Source: an uncultured Prevotellaceae bacterium (lineage in GTDB: Bacteria > Bacteroidota > Bacteroidia > Bacteroidales > Muribaculaceae). Taken from it: a stretch of DNA of 53,326 nucleotides. Below, one piece after another: positions 18,689 through 53,326 of this stretch. Both the position numbers and the translations under genes were made by a program. The DNA lies in contig ONYP01000012.1 of assembly GCA_900322135.1 (NCBI GenBank), positions 1-53,326 on the forward strand. Reading direction: 5' to 3'. The notes beneath the pieces were generated by a model. It saw only the letters and a program-made list of their open reading frames with translations, was not told the origin of the DNA and did no database searches. Within the stretch, counting starts at the first letter, position 1. Every line of letters begins with the position of its first letter.

Positions 18689-20548
18689 TTATTTGGAGGT
18701 GTTGAATCCCACGCGGGGCAGGGCGTTGCTGCGAGAGATGCCTTCCATCTGGTCACGCATGGTCTCGTACTCCTTGAGCAGCTCGCTGTTGACCGATGGC
18801 TTGATGCCCTCGAGCGTCTTGAGTAACAGATCCTGGGTGATGGGTTCGTTGTTGAAGGCTGCGATGGTTGCAGCCTCGTTGACGATGTAGGCGATATCGC
18901 TGGCGACATAGCCCTCGGATTTCTTAGAGAGTTCGTCGCTGTCGATGCCCTCACAGGGTCGGTCCTTGAGGTAAAGTTCAAACATGAGTTTGCGTGCCGT
19001 GGGGTCGGGCATGGGAACATAGACCTGCTTGTCGATGCGTCCTGTGCGCAGCACGGCGGGGTCCACCTTGTCGGGCCTGTTGCTGGTGGCGATGACAAAG
19101 ATGCCGCGCTTGGAGCAGTTGTTCAACTGCGAGAGGAACTCGTTGACCTCGCCGGCCTGGTTGCCGCCGGTGTTGTCGGTCGTGCGGTTAGGCACGAAGG
19201 CATCAAACTCGTCGAAGCACAAGACCGTCGGGGCGTTTAACTCGGCTTTCTTGAACAGGTCGGCGATTTTGCTCTGTGAACCGTGCACATAGATGGAACC
19301 CAGGTCGCTTGCCTTGACTAGGATGAAATTGAAGCCGGTCTCCTCGGCAAACTTCTCGGCAAAGAAGCTCTTGCCGCATCCCGGAGGCCCGTAGAGCAGC
19401 ATGCCGTTGGGCGGCGTGAGTTTATACTTCTCGGCAAGTTCCTTGTCCTTGAGGATGAGGATGACGCGTTTGCGCAGCATGTCCTTTAACTCATCCATGC
19501 CGGCGATGTCGGCAAATCCGTTGCCGTTGCCTCGCTTGATTTCGACATCGGCGCTGGTCATGGGGTCGGCAGCCCTTGTGGCACCCGTGTATTGGTCCTG
19601 GTTGCTGCTGTCAGTTTCCCGCTCTTGCTGCTCGCGTACCCTCTGGGCCTGGCGTGATGCGATTTCCTTGCGCAGTTCCTCGGCTTGCTCGCTGTTCTCG
19701 TCGTCGATGAGGAGTTCAATGAGTTGCTCGACGGTGTCCAGACGGTCGTTATAGGCCAGTGCCATGCCCGCCTGTACGATGGTCTTGAGTTTCTCGTCCT
19801 CGATGTCGCTGACATCGATGTCGCCTTTCTCACCTCGTGTTTTCTGTACAAGTTTGATTTTCTCTTTGCGCGTCATCTGTGGCGGGAACTCGATGTCCCA
19901 AGGTGTCCTGCCGGTGAGCATCGTATAGAATACCGCCGTAGCGGCAAAGATGTCGTTGAGTTCGTCATACTTGCCGAGGAACGACTGGCCGCTGGCATAG
20001 CGGGGGTCGAGGTCGGCCGTGTCGAACGGGGCGTTACCCATGAAGCAGGGCGAGATGTGTCCCAGGTCGATGAGTTCGGCCACGCCACCGGTCTTGCTGC
20101 TGAGCATGACATTGGTGGGGTTGATGTCGTTGTGCAGCAATATGCCCGGTTGCTCGTGCAGGTACTGCAGTCCCTCGAGCATCTCGAGGAAGATTTTTAC
20201 AGCGGTGTCGCGGTCGAGTTTTCCCTCGCGCTGCAGCATCTCGCTGAGCAGTTCGCCGCTGAAGTAGGTTGCGACGAGGTATCGGCATTCGCCGGCATCA
20301 TCGGAGTACTTGCCGTCGTTGATGTAACTGACGATGTTCTTGTGGCTCAGCTTGCGGCTGATGGCAATTTCGGCCACATCCCCGTTGACGATGAGTTTCT
20401 CGGGGGTACTCTTGAGGCGGTAAATCTTCATGAAGTAGGGGTTGCCGCTCTCGTCCTCGACGCGGTAGCTCTCGACATAGGGGTTTTCCTTGATGAGGTA
20501 AACCACATGCCATTTATTGTCGATGATTTGTCCTTGCTTGAGTATCAT
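18689..20548 (-). CDS. Ser/Thr protein kinase-AAA+ ATPase fusion protein
   Basis: 619 residues joining two domains. N-terminal eukaryotic-like kinase (about 1-275): ATP-anchoring Lys41 in FMKIYR, catalytic loop HNDINPTN with Asp141 and Asn146, and DLG (161-163) in place of DFG. The glycine-rich loop is not recognisable, and the usual catalytic-loop Lys is Asn143. A charged linker (about 276-340) leads to a classical AAA+ module of the FtsH/Cdc48/spastin type: Walker A GPPGCGKS at 387-394, Walker B VLCFDEFDA with Asp446 and Glu447, sensor-1 IATSN, and arginine-finger region RTGRID at 501-506. No protease or membrane segment is present, so remodelling of a client controlled by phosphorylation is a reasonable inference. 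It is co-transcribed with a DoxX-like membrane gene upstream and a YbjN-like gene downstream. Confidence 0.88.
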   Translation of the reverse strand: MILKQGQIIDNKWHVVYLIKENPYVESYRVEDESGNPYFMKIYRLKSTPEKLIVNGDVAEIAISRKLSHKNIVSYINDGKYSDDAGECRYLVATYFSGELLSEMLQREGKLDRDTAVKIFLEMLEGLQYLHEQPGILLHNDINPTNVMLSSKTGGVAELIDLGHISPCFMGNAPFDTADLDPRYASGQSFLGKYDELNDIFAATAVFYTMLTGRTPWDIEFPPQMTRKEKIKLVQKTRGEKGDIDVSDIEDEKLKTIVQAGMALAYNDRLDTVEQLIELLIDDENSEQAEELRKEIASRQAQRVREQQERETDSSNQDQYTGATRAADPMTSADVEIKRGNGNGFADIAGMDELKDMLRKRVILILKDKELAEKYKLTPPNGMLLYGPPGCGKSFFAEKFAEETGFNFILVKASDLGSIYVHGSQSKIADLFKKAELNAPTVLCFDEFDAFVPNRTTDNTGGNQAGEVNEFLSQLNNCSKRGIFVIATSNRPDKVDPAVLRTGRIDKQVYVPMPDPTARKLMFELYLKDRPCEGIDSDELSKKSEGYVASDIAYIVNEAATIAAFNNEPITQDLLLKTLEGIKPSVNSELLKEYETMRDQMEGISRSNALPRVGFNTSK

Positions 20549-48005: not shown

Positions 48006-48398
48006 TTATTTCGCGTTCGATTTTTGTGCGCGATAAACCTCCAGGAGTTCTTCCAACAACTTGATGCGCTCGTCCTTCTCGCGCAACATGTCGTCCTTGA
48101 ACTTGATCACATCGTCACGGTGTTTCACCTCCTGCTGCAAGACGTAGGCACTGGCGCTCTTCAGGCCGTTCTTGCTGTCGGTGGACGACAATTCGATGCC
48201 ACCTTCCCTTATAAAAAAGGTGTCAATCGTCACATTGAAGAAATCTGCAATTTGTTCCAACCGCTTTGCCGTGGGATTTCCCGTGATGAGACTCTGGATT
48301 GAATTCTGCTTTGGATTCAACCCGAGTGCCGTTAACAGTGCTTGATTCTGCAATCCTCGCTTCTCAAGCAACTCTTTGATTGCTTTGCCGTTATACAT
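48006..48398 (-). CDS. XRE-family transcriptional regulator with coiled-coil tail
   Basis: 130-residue repressor-like protein. The N-terminal helix-turn-helix (about residues 5-62) shows the Cro/CI pattern: AIKELLEKRGLQNQALLTALGLNPKQNSIQSLITGNPTAKRLEQIADFFNVTIDTFF. A long charged coiled coil follows (EVKHRDDVIKFKDDMLREKDERIKLLEELLEV). It is transcribed away from the two small genes and the primase, the usual layout of a regulatory switch in phages and conjugative elements. It probably binds the inverted repeat in the divergent gap. Confidence 0.85.
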   Translation of the reverse strand: MYNGKAIKELLEKRGLQNQALLTALGLNPKQNSIQSLITGNPTAKRLEQIADFFNVTIDTFFIREGGIELSSTDSKNGLKSASAYVLQQEVKHRDDVIKFKDDMLREKDERIKLLEELLEVYRAQKSNAK

Positions 48399-48532: not shown

Positions 48533-48709
48533 ATGAGCATTTCTAATTTCTACAACGAGTTACCGAGGCGCAAGAAATCCCGTTTCAGGGAGCGAGTCAA
48601 CAAGGTGTGCGGTTGGTCATACGGCACATTTTATTATAAGCTCACCCATAACAACCTCACCAGGCTGGAGAGGAAAGCGGTTGGGGATATTATGAAGTCT
48701 TACCAATAA
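48533..48709 (+). CDS. small basic 58-residue protein
   Basis: 58-residue basic protein: MSISNFYNELPRRKKSRFRE, then VCGWSYGTFYYKLTHNNLTRLERKAV, ending DIMKSYQ. The middle reads like a compact helix-turn-helix (R/KVCGWSYGTFYYKL resembles a recognition helix region), so a small DNA-binding regulator is plausible. It is the first gene after the divergent promoter, 12 bp before the next gene. It is too short to assign a family with confidence. Confidence 0.7.
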   Translation: MSISNFYNELPRRKKSRFRERVNKVCGWSYGTFYYKLTHNNLTRLERKAVGDIMKSYQ

Positions 48710-48973: not shown

Positions 48974-51900
48974 CGAGCGGAGCATAGAGGCTCTTTTGAA
49001 CCGCGTTGACATCGTTGACGTGGTGAGCCGTCACGTTGAACTCAAGCGTAAGGGATCAATCTGGCAGGCCTGTTGTCCGTTCCACAACGAGCGGACACCA
49101 TCGTTCATCGTCAATCCGACAAGGAACACCTGGCATTGTTTCGGGGCCTGCAGTGAAGGCGGCAATGCCATTTCATTCCTGATGAAGATGTGCAACATGT
49201 CATTCCCCGAGGCTGTCAGGGAACTGGGGAAGATGTACAACGTCACCATCGAAGAAACGAACAGCAAGGAGCAGACAGCGGAACAGTCAGCCAACGCATT
49301 GAAACGCGAGGCTATGTTCATGGCCTATCAGGCAGTGCAGCCCTTCTTCACGGCGCAACTTCATGGCGCCAACGAAGAGAATACCGAGGCTTTCCGGTAT
49401 GCCAAGCAGCGCTGGAGCCAGGAATTCATTGATGAATACGGCATCGGATACGCTCCCCGCAACGGGGAACTGCTGCTCAAGTTCATCCAGGTGAACTGCA
49501 TCCCTGAGCAGGTGCTGCTTGATATGGGAATGCTCCGCAGGTCTGAACGCAACGGCCACCTTTACCCGTTCTTCCGAGAGCGTATAATGATACCCATCCG
49601 TGACAGGATGGGCCGCATTATCGCATATACGGCAAGGACGACGTCAGAGAACAGCGATATACCGAAATATATCAACTCGACTACATCATTAATATATAGT
49701 AAGGAGAATTCCATATTCGGCATCGACACTGCTGTTAGGCCAGCCGTCAGGGACAGGAAGTTCTATCTTGTCGAAGGTGCACCTGACGTGCTGAGGATGC
49801 ACATCATTGGGGCCAACAACACGATCGCCTCTCTCGGTTCGGCGTGGACAGCGAAGCAACTCCAGCAGATTAAGCGTTTTACCCAGAACCTGTGTTTTCT
49901 CCCCGATGCCGATCCGCCAAAGAACGGCGAACCATATGGCACAGGCATCAAGTCGGTCATCAATAATGCGCTGCTCGCTTTCTCTGAAGGATTCAGCGTA
50001 TCGGTCAAAGAGATTCCTCTTGCCCCAGGGGGCAAGAAAAACGACCCAGACACGTACTGCGCCAGCCGTAAGGTTCTCGACGGCATCATGGAGCAGGACT
50101 TCATCAGTTGGTATGCCAGGAAACTGTTGCCGGAAAAATCCACACAGGAGGACAAGAAGAATGCAGTTTCAACGCTGTCCGACCTTATCGCTAAGGTGGA
50201 CGATGATGTACAGGAATCGATGCACCTTGACCAGCTGGTGAAACTGATTCCCGGCAGGGTCATGTGGAAGAACGCCGTCAAGGCTGCCCGCAAACGTCTG
50301 GCAGAAGCCAAGCTCAAGGAAAAGGAGAATGATGATGAGGAACTTGGCGCGAGGTATGGTTTCCACATCCGCCACAACTGCTATTACTCCGTTGGAGAGG
50401 ACGGCAAGTGGCAGCAGTGGTCCAATTTCACTATGACGCCGCTTTACCACATCAAGGATCAAGTGGCCGCCGTTAGATTGTTCCGCCTCACCAACGAGGA
50501 CGGCATAAAAGAAGAGATAGAAATGAAACAAGAAGAACTGGTATCAATCACAAAATTCAGACAAAGGGTCGAAAGTGTCGGAAACTTTATCTGGAATGCC
50601 GCTGATAAGCAGCTTCAGCGGCTCAAACAGTACCTCTACTCGTTTACCGACACGGCGGTAGAGATCAAACAATTGGGATGGCAGCGTCAAGGTTTTTTCG
50701 CCTTCGGCAACGGCATCTTTACAACGGAGTGGCACGAGGTGGATGACCTGGGCATCGTCCGTCTGGGTGACGAACTCGGGAACTTCTATCTTCCCGCATT
50801 CTCGTCGATCTATAAGGACGACACTCAGTTTTTCCAGTTTGAGCGGCAGTTCATCCACTTGCCGACCAACAGCATTCCGCTGTATGACTACGCCAAGAAG
50901 CTTGTAAGCGTGTTCGGCGACAACGCCAAGGTGGGCTTATGCTTCCTGCTGGCCACGTTGTATCGTGACATTGTCGTGTCCTACACCAGGAGTTTTCCAA
51001 TCCTCAACCTGTTCGGTCCAAAGGGATCAGGCAAGTCTGAACTGGGCCACTCCCTGATGGCTTTCTTCATCAGAGACAATGTGCCGCCCAACATCAGCAA
51101 TTCCACGCTTCCTGCACTCGCCGATGCCGTTGCTCAATGCTCCAACGCGCTCGTCCATTTGGACGAGTTTCGCAACAACCTGGACGAGCAGAAGCGCGAG
51201 TTCCTCAAAGGCTTGTGGGACGGCACTGGGCGTAACCGCATGAATATGGACCGTGACAAGAAGCGTGAGGTGACCAAGGTCAGCTGCGGTGTCATAGTCA
51301 GTGGCCAGGAGATGGCTACTGCCGACATCGCCCTGTTCTCACGCTTCATCTTCCTTTCGTACTCCAAGAGCCAGTTCTCGCAGGAGGCGAAACGCCGCTT
51401 TGCAGACCTCACGGAGTGCCGCAAGCTTGGATGCTCTCATCTAGTACTGGAACTGCTCCGGCATAGGGCATTATTTGAAGCGGACTTCCGCACTTGTTAT
51501 GACGAGTGTTTCAGGCAACTAGTCGATGCCCTGGAAAACTCTAATGTGGAAGACCGCATCATCAGAAACTGGGTTATCCCCCTAGCTGCCTTCAACACCC
51601 TCAAGGACGTGGTAAAACTGCCCTTCACTTATAATGAGATGCTCGAGATCTCGGTACAGGGCGCACTCAGGCAGAATAGCGAGAACGCATTGAACAATGA
51701 GGTGTCCAATTTTTGGAATATCGTCTCTTTCCTCAAGCAGGACGGAAGAATATGGCTTGGCTGTGACTATAGGATAGAGAACGAGGTCAAGCTGCAGTGC
51801 AGAGGCCAGAAGTATGCAACGGAATTCCCGAGTCCGAAACGGATTCTCTATCTGCGTCACAACAGGATCTTCCAGCTGTACAAGATGCATGGCAGACAAG

Positions 51901-52145
51901 TGAACGAGACTTTGATTTCGCCCAACTCGCTGCTCTACTACCTCGAGAATAGTGAGGCTTATCTGGGCCGCAAGCAATCCGTCCGCTTCAAGAACATCAT
52001 CAACGGTGTCGAGCAGATGAGGGAGACAGAGCTGCCTAATGGCCAGAAGGTGTACAAGAAGGTCTCAGTTGTCGACCAGGCACTCGTCTTTGACTATGAC
52101 ATGCTCACCGAGACATTCGATTTGAGCATAGATGAATTAGAATAA
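48966..52145 (+). CDS. CHC2/TOPRIM DNA primase fused to a P-loop ATPase (helicase-like)
   Basis: 1059 residues. N-terminal CHC2 zinc finger CCPFHNERTPSF with ligands Cys37, His40, Cys58 and Cys62; the second pair is spaced C-FGA-C, one residue longer than the usual CFGC. Primase core with TOPRIM: YLVEGAPDVLRM (Glu270) and LPDADPP. A central linker leads to a C-terminal P-loop ATPase of DUF927/superfamily 3-like type: Walker A GPKGSGKS at 684-691 and Walker B LVHLDEF with Asp733 and Glu734. Primase-helicase fusions drive replication of phages, satellites and conjugative elements. Start at MIDERSIEALL; the longer frame upstream is only overlap with the previous gene. Confidence 0.88.
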   Translation: MIDERSIEALLNRVDIVDVVSRHVELKRKGSIWQACCPFHNERTPSFIVNPTRNTWHCFGACSEGGNAISFLMKMCNMSFPEAVRELGKMYNVTIEETNSKEQTAEQSANALKREAMFMAYQAVQPFFTAQLHGANEENTEAFRYAKQRWSQEFIDEYGIGYAPRNGELLLKFIQVNCIPEQVLLDMGMLRRSERNGHLYPFFRERIMIPIRDRMGRIIAYTARTTSENSDIPKYINSTTSLIYSKENSIFGIDTAVRPAVRDRKFYLVEGAPDVLRMHIIGANNTIASLGSAWTAKQLQQIKRFTQNLCFLPDADPPKNGEPYGTGIKSVINNALLAFSEGFSVSVKEIPLAPGGKKNDPDTYCASRKVLDGIMEQDFISWYARKLLPEKSTQEDKKNAVSTLSDLIAKVDDDVQESMHLDQLVKLIPGRVMWKNAVKAARKRLAEAKLKEKENDDEELGARYGFHIRHNCYYSVGEDGKWQQWSNFTMTPLYHIKDQVAAVRLFRLTNEDGIKEEIEMKQEELVSITKFRQRVESVGNFIWNAADKQLQRLKQYLYSFTDTAVEIKQLGWQRQGFFAFGNGIFTTEWHEVDDLGIVRLGDELGNFYLPAFSSIYKDDTQFFQFERQFIHLPTNSIPLYDYAKKLVSVFGDNAKVGLCFLLATLYRDIVVSYTRSFPILNLFGPKGSGKSELGHSLMAFFIRDNVPPNISNSTLPALADAVAQCSNALVHLDEFRNNLDEQKREFLKGLWDGTGRNRMNMDRDKKREVTKVSCGVIVSGQEMATADIALFSRFIFLSYSKSQFSQEAKRRFADLTECRKLGCSHLVLELLRHRALFEADFRTCYDECFRQLVDALENSNVEDRIIRNWVIPLAAFNTLKDVVKLPFTYNEMLEISVQGALRQNSENALNNEVSNFWNIVSFLKQDGRIWLGCDYRIENEVKLQCRGQKYATEFPSPKRILYLRHNRIFQLYKMHGRQVNETLISPNSLLYYLENSEAYLGRKQSVRFKNIINGVEQMRETELPNGQKVYKKVSVVDQALVFDYDMLTETFDLSIDELE

Positions 52146-52190
52146 GGATATCCCGTGTTTTCAGAGTCCCTAACTCTGAATTATAGCTTG

Positions 52191-52224
52191 GAGCCGACGG
52201 CTTGGGAAAGTAGTCGGCTCTTTT
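52191..52224 (+). terminator. Rho-independent terminator of the primase operon
   Basis: Perfect 8-bp stem GAGCCGAC / GTCGGCTC followed by TTTT. A second perfect hairpin (52160-52180) lies just upstream. Confidence 0.75.
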
Positions 52225-52277
52225 GGACCCCGATGGGATGGAGAATAAAATTCTGGTTGATGAAGCACTATAAATAC

Positions 52278-52506
52278 TTCTACATCTTCTACAAGTTCTA
52301 TATTGTTGATAATAAACAAATTAAATCATAATTATTTGTAGATAAACTCTTACATTTTTCTACACGAAAAATGATGCTTCTGACCTCAAAAGGGGGCAAA
52401 AAGCCGTCATTTTCTACAGCTGTAGTCGTTTTCTACAAAAATACATAAAATAAGTTTTTCGCAAACCGCAGAAAACCAGTGTGTTATTGTTTTGTAGATG
52501 TTGTAG
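52278..52506. repeat. iteron-like TTCTACA cluster, candidate origin
   Basis: TTCTACA on the plus strand at 52278, 52287, 52358, 52412 and 52431 (plus TTCTATA at 52296); the inverse core TGTAG at 52337, 52421, 52493 and 52502. The left group repeats every 9 bp and so does the right pair, in the opposite orientation. At 52414-52425 two copies form the palindrome CTACAGCTGTAG. The DNA between is AT-rich. Confidence 0.75.
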
Positions 52507-52695
52507 TGGCAGTTTTCGGGTTTTAATGTGTCCGAAATTCAAAAACTCATTTTTCTTTGAATCGAGCATATTGAAATGCCAGGAAGAAAATTTTTCTTCA
52601 GCTCTTGTCCCTGGAGCGGTCTTGGGCGCAACCGCTTGCAGGAGAAATAGCCTGTTGTCCGTAAAAATCACCAAGACATCCATGACTTGTTCATC

Positions 52696-52868
52696 CTCGC
52701 TTTCGTTGCCTTTACCCTGCAAAGGTATTGCGGCTTTCCCACACGCAAGGCCAAGACGAGTTGCCTTCGGAAATTCTCCAGCCCTTCGGGTAGTAATTCC
52801 CGGGCAAGCCTTGCTTTCAGTGTGTCACAGCCGCACTTTGCAGGCAGTGTAAAGGCGATCGAAGCGAG
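52696..52868. repeat. 170-nt multi-stem structured element upstream of ardA
   Basis: Successive nested helices: CTCGCTTTCG with CGAAGCGAG (one bulge), GCCTTTAC with GTAAAGGC, CTGCAAAG with CTTTGCAG, TGCGGCT with AGCCGCA, ACACGCAAGGC with GCCTTGC...GTGT, TTGCC with GGCAA, GGAAATT with AATTCC, and an apical CCC-TTC-GGG hairpin. Symmetric bulges separate the helices. Confidence 0.8.
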
Positions 52869-52909
52869 AACAAGATCAATGAATGTTTAACTTTTTATTT
52901 TTTACTGTT

Positions 52910-53326
52910 ATGGACAACAATTCAATTTCTTTCAATCCTGCAAGCGGTGCTGACAGCACCAGTCTTCAAGAGCAAATCGTAAAAGGCTCTCTCAGCTCCT
53001 CCAATCTCAATGAATGCGAAGAGCTTGAGGAGGTCGATTTGGATTTCCACAAGTACGATTACCGCAGCGGCCATCCTGCCGTGTTCTGCTGCACCTATCA
53101 CAAGTATAATGAAGGGAGGCCGCTGGCTGGCATGTGGCTTGACCTGTACACCTTCAGCTGCTACGAGGATTTTGTGGCCGCCTGCCGATGGCTGCACCGT
53201 GATGAGGAGGATCCCGAGTTTGCCTATCTCGATTATGAGAATTACCCCGATGAGTGGTACAGTGAGAGCGGCCTCGATGAGGACACATTCGAGCGCATTC
53301 TCGAGTACGCTGACCTCGATGATGAC
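52910..53326 (+). CDS. ardA: antirestriction protein ArdA, truncated by the window end
   Basis: The first 139 codons are present; the frame is still open at the window end. ArdA proteins are acidic DNA mimics that block type I restriction-modification enzymes when a mobile element enters a new host. Recognisable parts are VFCCTYHKYNEGRPLAGMWLDLYTFSCYEDFVAACRWLHRDEEDPEFAYLDYENYPDEWYSESGLDEDTFERILEYA; the net charge is strongly negative. The start ATG at 52910 lies 41 bp after the structured element. It supports a conjugative or phage-like element extending to the right. Confidence 0.9.
   Translation, partial: MDNNSISFNPASGADSTSLQEQIVKGSLSSSNLNECEELEEVDLDFHKYDYRSGHPAVFCCTYHKYNEGRPLAGMWLDLYTFSCYEDFVAACRWLHRDEEDPEFAYLDYENYPDEWYSESGLDEDTFERILEYADLDDD

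Follow-up and report, generated by a model that had tools for sequence, protein, structure and literature searches.

We report an iteron array that very probably serves a temperate Bacteroidales phage as its replication origin, with the iterons presumably bound by the primase-helicase encoded next to it in a pri-rep-ori module like those of phage-inducible chromosomal islands (PICIs) and P4. The array lies on contig ONYP01000012.1 (53,326 nucleotides, referred to in full as the window), which is one whole contig of a 3.09-Mb metagenome-assembled genome of an uncultured Prevotellaceae bacterium (GCA_900322135.1). The left part of a prophage occupies this contig from about 48 kb and is cut by the contig end. 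Our assignment builds on features computed here: the array itself, an architecture that is conserved and persists with the primase, a repeat word that is specific to the lineage, and the association of that word with the winged-helix region of the primase-helicase. More broadly, we consider it fairly likely that many temperate phages of Bacteroidales, forming a large group not described before, encode their own primase-helicase-iteron origins and replicate from them, and that word and winged helix change together in this group, giving origin-specificity groups.

An iteron array follows the primase-helicase gene

The array spans positions 52278-52508 of the window, beginning 132 bp after the primase stop codon, and consists of a left direct block, an AT-rich stretch, middle copies and a right inverted block (Table 1). 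Exact copies of TTCTACA begin at 52278, 52287, 52358, 52412 and 52431, and three further sites carry one mismatch (TTCTATA at 52296 and the inverted TGTAGAT at 52337 and 52493). In total, 8 sites with at most one mismatch fall within 52278-52499, compared with 0.59 expected per 230 bp from the rate in the rest of the window. The four TGTAG cores start at 52337, 52420, 52493 and 52502. Across the whole window the exact word occurs 12 times, against a mean of 3.77 and a maximum of 8 in 100 shuffles, and the remaining seven copies are dispersed. The AT fraction is 0.69 in the array and 0.46 in the window, and the AT-richest 40 bp of the array come soon after the left block. These counts confirm the preliminary description of the site, which had listed five exact copies, a near copy and four TGTAG cores in about 230 bp of AT-rich DNA between a primase-P-loop gene and ardA; both neighbours were verified by Pfam, with ardA cut by the contig end.

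We also used a word-blind signature, defined as a 6-mer direct pair at 9 bp plus an inverted pair at 9 bp, 100-340 bp apart, with at most one mismatch. The 53-kb window contains a single such site (52279..52493, one mismatch) and five shuffles contained none, in agreement with the 9-bp spacing at both ends and the opposite orientations noted earlier. The concern that the motif might simply be dispersed throughout the genome was not borne out: the direct pair TTCTACANNTTCTACA occurs once in its own genome (3.09 Mb, 82.6% complete), at the array, and its reversed control does not occur there. A search against Rfam returned one match, at 52100-52960, far below its cut-off.

The array persists with the primase while its word changes

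The homologue set comprises 118 loci, 117 of them with a primase. For 106 of these loci, 350 bp or more of sequence follow the primase stop codon; comparing the 650 bp that surround the stop leaves 89 of the 106 distinct. The word-blind signature is present in 91 of the 106, compared with 1/106 after shuffling. When the spacing was changed to 7, 8, 10, 11 or 12 bp, the signature was found in 0, 1, 4, 0 and 4 loci, respectively. The commonest 7-mer within 350 bp, downstream of the primase, has at least six copies in 80/106 loci and five copies in 7/106; shuffled loci never exceeded four copies, a number reached in 15/117. The 15 loci that lack the signature include three with an array by copy number (L036 and L118, seven copies each, and L113, nine copies of a 10-bp type), six with an array farther along the same contig, two with one on another contig, and four in which none was found. 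A primase with ample sequence after it and no array is thus seen in at most 2/106 loci (L095 and L022), and the earlier proposal of a candidate replication origin is supported by this retention of the array across homologous loci.

Forty-four distinct arrays, belonging to three motif classes, TTC(T/C/A)ACA, were measured. Their outer span is 218 bp (standard deviation 11), with forward copies at the left and in the middle and most inverted copies at the right end. Neighbouring same-strand copies are most often 9 bp apart, then 10 or 11. The AT fraction is 0.64-0.76 inside the arrays versus 0.44-0.58 in most flanking bins, and it stays raised for about 100 bp beyond the array. The architecture of the group can accordingly be written as two to four direct copies, AT-rich DNA, middle sites and two to three inverted copies, mostly at 9 bp. 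The 7-bp word changes between lineages while this architecture stays: besides TTCTACA, lineages use TTCCACA, TTCAACA, TGTTACA, TGCTACA, ATCTACA, AACTACA, TACTACA, TATTACA (read off the left block TTGTAATA) and words of the TAAAGTA and AAGGTAG types.

The array does not always adjoin the primase: its start is over 0.6 kb away in about 20 of the 106 loci, and in some phages it lies 0.7-12.4 kb downstream. Displaced arrays remain within the element. Because the wings (see below) of L054, L055, L064, L073, L080, L058, L095 and others read V-R-F, like those of TTCTACA users, we sought TCTACANNNTCTACA in 13 genomes or records. Matches were present in 10, with inverted pairs in five (G150, G151, G152, G156 and G157), and the reversed control matched in 8/13. 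In L054, L055, L064 and L080 this identified an inverted-pair array on the primase contig, about 9.7-12.4 kb downstream; in L073 and L058 an inverted-pair array was found on another contig of the genome only, and so is not tied to that phage. No array was obtained with TCTACANNNTCTACA for L017, L018, L019 or L095. The looser word CTACANNNNCTACA detected inverted-pair arrays on the primase contigs of L017 (6.3 kb downstream) and L019 (8.2 kb). None was found in L018, on a contig that ends 1.7 kb after the gene, or in L065, where 0.9 kb after the gene is covered. A triple TGTAGAA near 79.67 kb of G150 was rejected as an array; it lacks an inverted block and is apparently coding sequence.

Among 150 relatives, inverted-pair arrays were found only in G001, G034, G041, G049, G073, G080 and G087, and all of these except G001 have the long primase. 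The array of G001 lies at a contig end with prophage ardA and head genes on its other side. We rejected it as an example of an array without a primase; the primase would lie past the contig end.

Related arrays occur in phages of Porphyromonas gingivalis. Of 18 matching Porphyromonas records we examined four (BK068107, BK068101, BK068105 and BK068097). Their primases are 28-29% identical to that of the window. As in the window's group, the array, which here sits between the primase and the prohead protease, has a left direct block, AT-rich DNA and an inverted right block; unlike it, the spacing is mainly 8 bp. The word is TCCAACA in BK068107, BK068101 and BK068105, which show the word-blind signature at 8-bp spacing, and TCCTACA in BK068097, whose array was seen by eye and has no strict signature. 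The annotation of BK068107 places three small "hypothetical proteins" on the minus strand across the array (L154:9481-10060); they are probably not genes.

The iteron word varies with the winged-helix region of the primase-helicase

The primase-helicase contains a CHC2 zinc ribbon, a DnaG core with TOPRIM, a linker, an AAA+ P-loop helicase and a C-terminal winged helix. ATG 48966 was chosen as its likely start, since residue 25 of the longest open reading frame (ORF) is about where many homologues start. The AlphaFold (AF2) model of the whole protein has a mean predicted local distance difference test score (pLDDT) of 83, and that of the C-terminal domain alone reaches 90. In the latter, helices are followed by a long beta wing, an arrangement that, read from predicted secondary structure, appears to be that of a winged helix. 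A Foldseek search with the whole model retrieved DnaG cores, Cch of the staphylococcal cassette chromosome SCCmec (5dgk, E 8e-13) and Rep of the Staphylococcus aureus pathogenicity island (SaPI) SaPIBov1 (8tch, E 7e-11); a search of the PDB by sequence retrieved DnaG chains only.

The primase-helicase is common to all loci by construction of the search, and we examined which of its parts follow the word. At the wing, all nine TTCCACA users have W1030-R-Y1032 and 34 of 36 TTCTACA users have V-R-F. Among 347 columns conserved in 35 TTCTACA users, eight switch strictly in the nine TTCCACA users. Residues 933-1083 account for four of these eight, although only 46 of the 347 columns fall there (Fisher p 0.013). 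In partial Mantel tests on 70 proteins (words of 16 loci set by hand, 500 permutations), the correlation was 0.243 for residues 985-1040, a value that no permutation reached, and 0.173 for residues 933-1083 (7/500 permutations as high). A matched-pair comparison used 67 proteins, after three with an ambiguous first base had been dropped. For pairs with a helicase identity of 0.70-0.78, the winged helix is 0.61 identical when the word is the same versus 0.49 when it differs (+0.12), and the same-word excess of other segments is +0.04 to +0.07; in the 0.64-0.70 bin the winged-helix excess is 0.09. Finally, when P. gingivalis phages with TCCTACA are compared with those that use TCCAACA, conservation in 50-residue windows along the primase is lowest at the wing (0.46), and two TCCAACA users share 0.94 there.

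From these data we propose the following mechanism. One polypeptide would act as primase, AAA+ helicase and initiator, and its C-terminal winged-helix domain would bind the 7-bp iterons. Molecules of the protein, probably two hexamers, would assemble on the left direct and right inverted blocks across the outer span of about 218 bp and melt the AT-rich DNA between them. The primase-helicase would then load itself as helicase and prime synthesis, and the origin would be used after prophage induction or infection. We infer all of these steps, from binding, melting, loading and priming to use of the origin.

Several observations weigh against this assignment of origin and binder. Other segments of the protein correlate with the word too (partial Mantel 0.158 for residues 25-400, 8/500; 0.118 for 670-899, 30/500; 0.092 for 450-669, 62/500), and Mantel windows of 30 residues peak not only at 1005-1064 but also at 875-924, where they reach 0.36. 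Mantel-type tests are inflated by the relatedness of the sequences, and in the 0.58-0.64 bin of the matched pairs the winged-helix excess is +0.01. V-R-F also accompanies ATCTACA, TTCAACA, GTCTACA and GCTACA-type words, so V1030 and F1032 alone do not set the word and other residues must matter; a V-R-F wing likewise failed to predict TCTACA in L017 and L019. The switch from T to C in the word, together with W-R-Y, is found in one clade and therefore probably reflects one evolutionary event. With respect to structure, the isolated C-terminal domain had no significant PDB match in Foldseek (best 2ipq, E 0.04), and the match to SaPI Rep comes without an aligned range, leaving C-terminal overlap not established.

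The survey of loci contributes further points of this kind. Four loci (L074, L076, L078 and L115) have their array among head genes, at a distance of 4.8-5.0 kb from the primase. No array was found in L095 within a 13.6-kb fragment that includes 7.9 kb after the gene, in L022 in a search of its genome for CTACA-type words and in its 1.4-kb flank, or in the less than 0.2 kb after the gene in two faecal-virome records with a primase 41% identical. Among the 150 relatives, TTCYACANNTTCYACA matched 45 genomes and its reversed control 46; a lone direct pair therefore carries no signal. The GC skew of BK068107 was uninformative.

Residues 875-924 (51516-51665), a helical stretch that links the AAA+ core to the winged helix, follow the motif type as well. 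They might determine the spacing or the oligomer formed on DNA.

Other explanations of the array

The best-surviving alternative, which we regard as unlikely, retains an origin and changes the binder: the Cro-like 58-residue protein, the XRE repressor or a LuxR-type regulator would bind the array and recruit the primase-helicase. Each of the three is a small DNA-binding protein, all are encoded in the same early region, and many phages use a separate initiator. No small regulator was found in all loci, the repressor family U0 being present in 36/58, the Cro-like family U1 in 32/58 and the LuxR-type family U2 in 29/58 of the loci with upstream sequence; these figures are lower bounds, since families were linked at E 1e-4 and an overlap filter lost the window's own U1. 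In addition, the change of word coincides with a change of the primase wing, in a co-variation comparison that covered the primase only. The suggestion that the 58-residue or XRE protein binds the array, made in the preliminary description, is not supported, given that the word follows the primase-helicase itself, in its C-terminal winged-helix region. Judging from these sequence comparisons, the primase-helicase is more likely to be the array binder than the small proteins. The U2 regulator, which is LuxR/sigma-region-4-like (phrog_10300; L067:3767-4348) and belongs to the early region of the loci that carry it, is a possible early or late activator.

It is more doubtful still that the array is a late-gene control site, that is, an operator or enhancer for a phage activator placed before the first late gene. 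Such a role would fit the many loci in which the array immediately precedes the late gene family F2, including those where it is displaced from the primase (L052, L057, L061, L068, L085, L097, L102, L108 and L116). It does not fit the four loci with the array between head genes, nor L035, L039 and their relatives, in which an ardA-type gene (family F9) separates the array from F2; symmetric blocks about 200 bp apart would also be unusual for an operator.

We give slightly less credence again to a packaging (pac) site bound by the small terminase, an idea suggested by the fact that intergenic repeats adjoin head genes. In BK068107 the array, at 9.7-10.0 kb, is far from the start of the large terminase gene at 17.9 kb, and the word goes with the primase winged helix, in a comparison that covered the primase. 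Although 7-mers do recur in AT-rich DNA, chance or low-complexity clustering can be set aside as negligibly probable, the site counts and the signature being far above shuffles both in the window and in its relatives.

Comparison with known replication modules

An origin bound by the neighbouring primase-helicase would have its closest counterparts in SaPIs and other PICIs, with SaPIBov1 Rep and EcCICFT073 Pri-Rep as examples. The C-terminal domain of SaPI Rep recognises an origin directly downstream (PMC7581432); in PICI origins, two iteron sets flank an AT-rich region, and a cloned rep-ori segment replicates (PMC6092414). PICI replication modules are described as pri and rep, sometimes fused, followed by ori. 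The window system resembles these in the fold of the AAA+ helicase half, which is similar to that of SaPIBov1 Rep and Cch (Foldseek 8tch and 5dgk), in an origin-like array 3' of the initiator gene, close to it in the window as in most loci, and in two iteron sets flanking AT-rich DNA. Unlike PICIs, the relatives carry their own virion genes and are not satellites; the elements are thus not PICIs despite the matching layout. They further differ from the SaPI/PICI module in having a DnaG-type primase fused in the same chain, a Bacteroidota host, different iterons, and an array up to about 12 kb from the gene.

The alpha protein of P4 combines a TOPRIM primase, a helicase and a winged-helix repeat-binding domain in one polypeptide (PMC4234260). 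The same three elements appear to be joined in one chain here, as judged from Pfam, structural models and Foldseek. P4 is itself a satellite, and its iteron sequence and crr arrangement probably differ from the array described here. For SCCmec, the C-terminal domain of Cch2 is reported to bind direct repeats downstream of the gene, at a putative origin (PMC7581432). That system differs from ours in its three 5-nt iterons, its separate polymerase-type primase and its D5-family helicase. The temperate Streptococcus thermophilus phage Sfi21 is said to have a repeat-rich noncoding origin after its primase gene, for which our literature search gave no confirmation.

We found no earlier description of an iteron origin in Bacteroides or Bacteroidales phages in a literature search that had most subscription journals outside its reach. 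The words "iteron" and "primase" do not occur in the main text of the paper on P. gingivalis phages (PMC10367356). In PMC6092414, the organisation of PICI origins is said to be common to no other known replicon, a statement that our finding would weaken. If our reading is correct, origins could be annotated in many gut prophages from sequence alone and grouped by specificity. The phages would offer a system for testing the assembly of a self-loading helicase on its origin and the evolution of its recognition, as well as a natural series for reading a protein-DNA recognition code. Array fragments could also serve as small replicons for Bacteroides genetics.

Gene context and additional observations

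The prophage genes run in the order XRE-type repressor, divergent 58-aa protein, 83-aa ORF, primase, array and ardA (Table 1). The window ends before the late genes; judged by its relatives, the element is a prophage. The closest homologous loci come from Prevotellaceae, Prevotella or Bacteroidales records. In related loci, a ClpP-type head maturation protease adjoins the module (PHROG match; the NCBIfam match is below its cut-off), and the annotated P. gingivalis phage BK068107 has the order prohead protease, major capsid, terminase, portal, tape measure, endolysin and integrase. A plasmid setting was rejected: 0 of 264 plasmid records with a match cover 80% of the primase, and the late genes of the relatives are phage head genes. 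Attachment (att) arm sites were dropped as an interpretation, since in the loci with listed neighbours the array is intergenic and internal to the element.

Table 1. Positions of the iteron array, the primase-helicase and the neighbouring prophage genes in the window.
Feature	Positions	Strand	Basis and remarks
XRE-type prophage repressor, family U0	48006..48398	-	U0 in 36/58 loci; weak RstR-family match below cut-off
58-aa Cro-like protein, family U1, divergent from repressor	48533..48709	+	Reading frame; U1 in at least 32/58 loci
Primase-helicase, candidate initiator, 1,059 aa	48966..52145	+	Pfam CHC2, DNAG_N, Toprim_2; TIGR01391 dnaG on first 426 aa
Walker A GPKGSGKS, helicase domain	51015..51038	+	Sequence; columns mostly (nearly) invariant in alignment A1
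C-terminal domain (winged helix), predicted iteron binder	51675..52145	+	AF2 domain model; association with motif type
Wing strand YLGRKQSVRFK, residues 1023-1033 of longest ORF	51960..51992	+	Strand at model residues 999-1009
Left iteron block TTCTACA, TTCTACA, TTCTATA, 9-bp spacing	52278..52302	+	Sequence counts
AT-rich stretch (35/40), candidate unwinding element	52309..52348	.	AT count; AT raised in relatives' arrays too
Middle iteron, inverted, TGTAGAT	52337..52343	-	One-mismatch scan
Middle iteron TTCTACA	52358..52364	+	Exact copy
Middle iteron TTCTACA	52412..52418	+	Exact copy
Inverted core TGTAG between two forward copies	52420..52424	-	Sequence
Middle iteron TTCTACA	52431..52437	+	Exact copy
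Right iteron block, inverted, TGTAGAT, TGTAGTG, 9-bp spacing	52493..52508	-	Sequence; word-blind signature
ardA-like anti-restriction gene, cut by contig end	52910..53326	+	ORF from 52883, likely ATG 52910; Pfam ArdA, phrog_2059

Over about 320 bp, the noncoding leader of ardA (52593-52912) shares 96-98% identity with its counterparts in L009/L045, L043/L008 and L037. Despite these near-identical leaders, the primases of the same loci are merely 61-70% identical to that of the window; on this sequence evidence, the ardA cassette seems to have been exchanged together with its leader. A common fold was predicted for the leader in 11 sequences, with 51 pairs, nine of which are kept with changes on both sides, and a covariation term of only -0.17; no Rfam match to the leader exceeded its cut-off. 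A structured leader RNA is possible. The own genome contains a second copy of 150 bp of this leader (C69:26827-26975, L002), 78% identical, possibly from another ardA-like cassette.

Two observations concern other sequences. Locus L057 is a phage of the Bacteroidales group within a 2.6-Mb record titled Staphylococcus sp., a genome name that is probably wrong. Outside the prophage, the host gene at 18689-20548 of the window encodes a protein kinase domain fused to an AAA ATPase.
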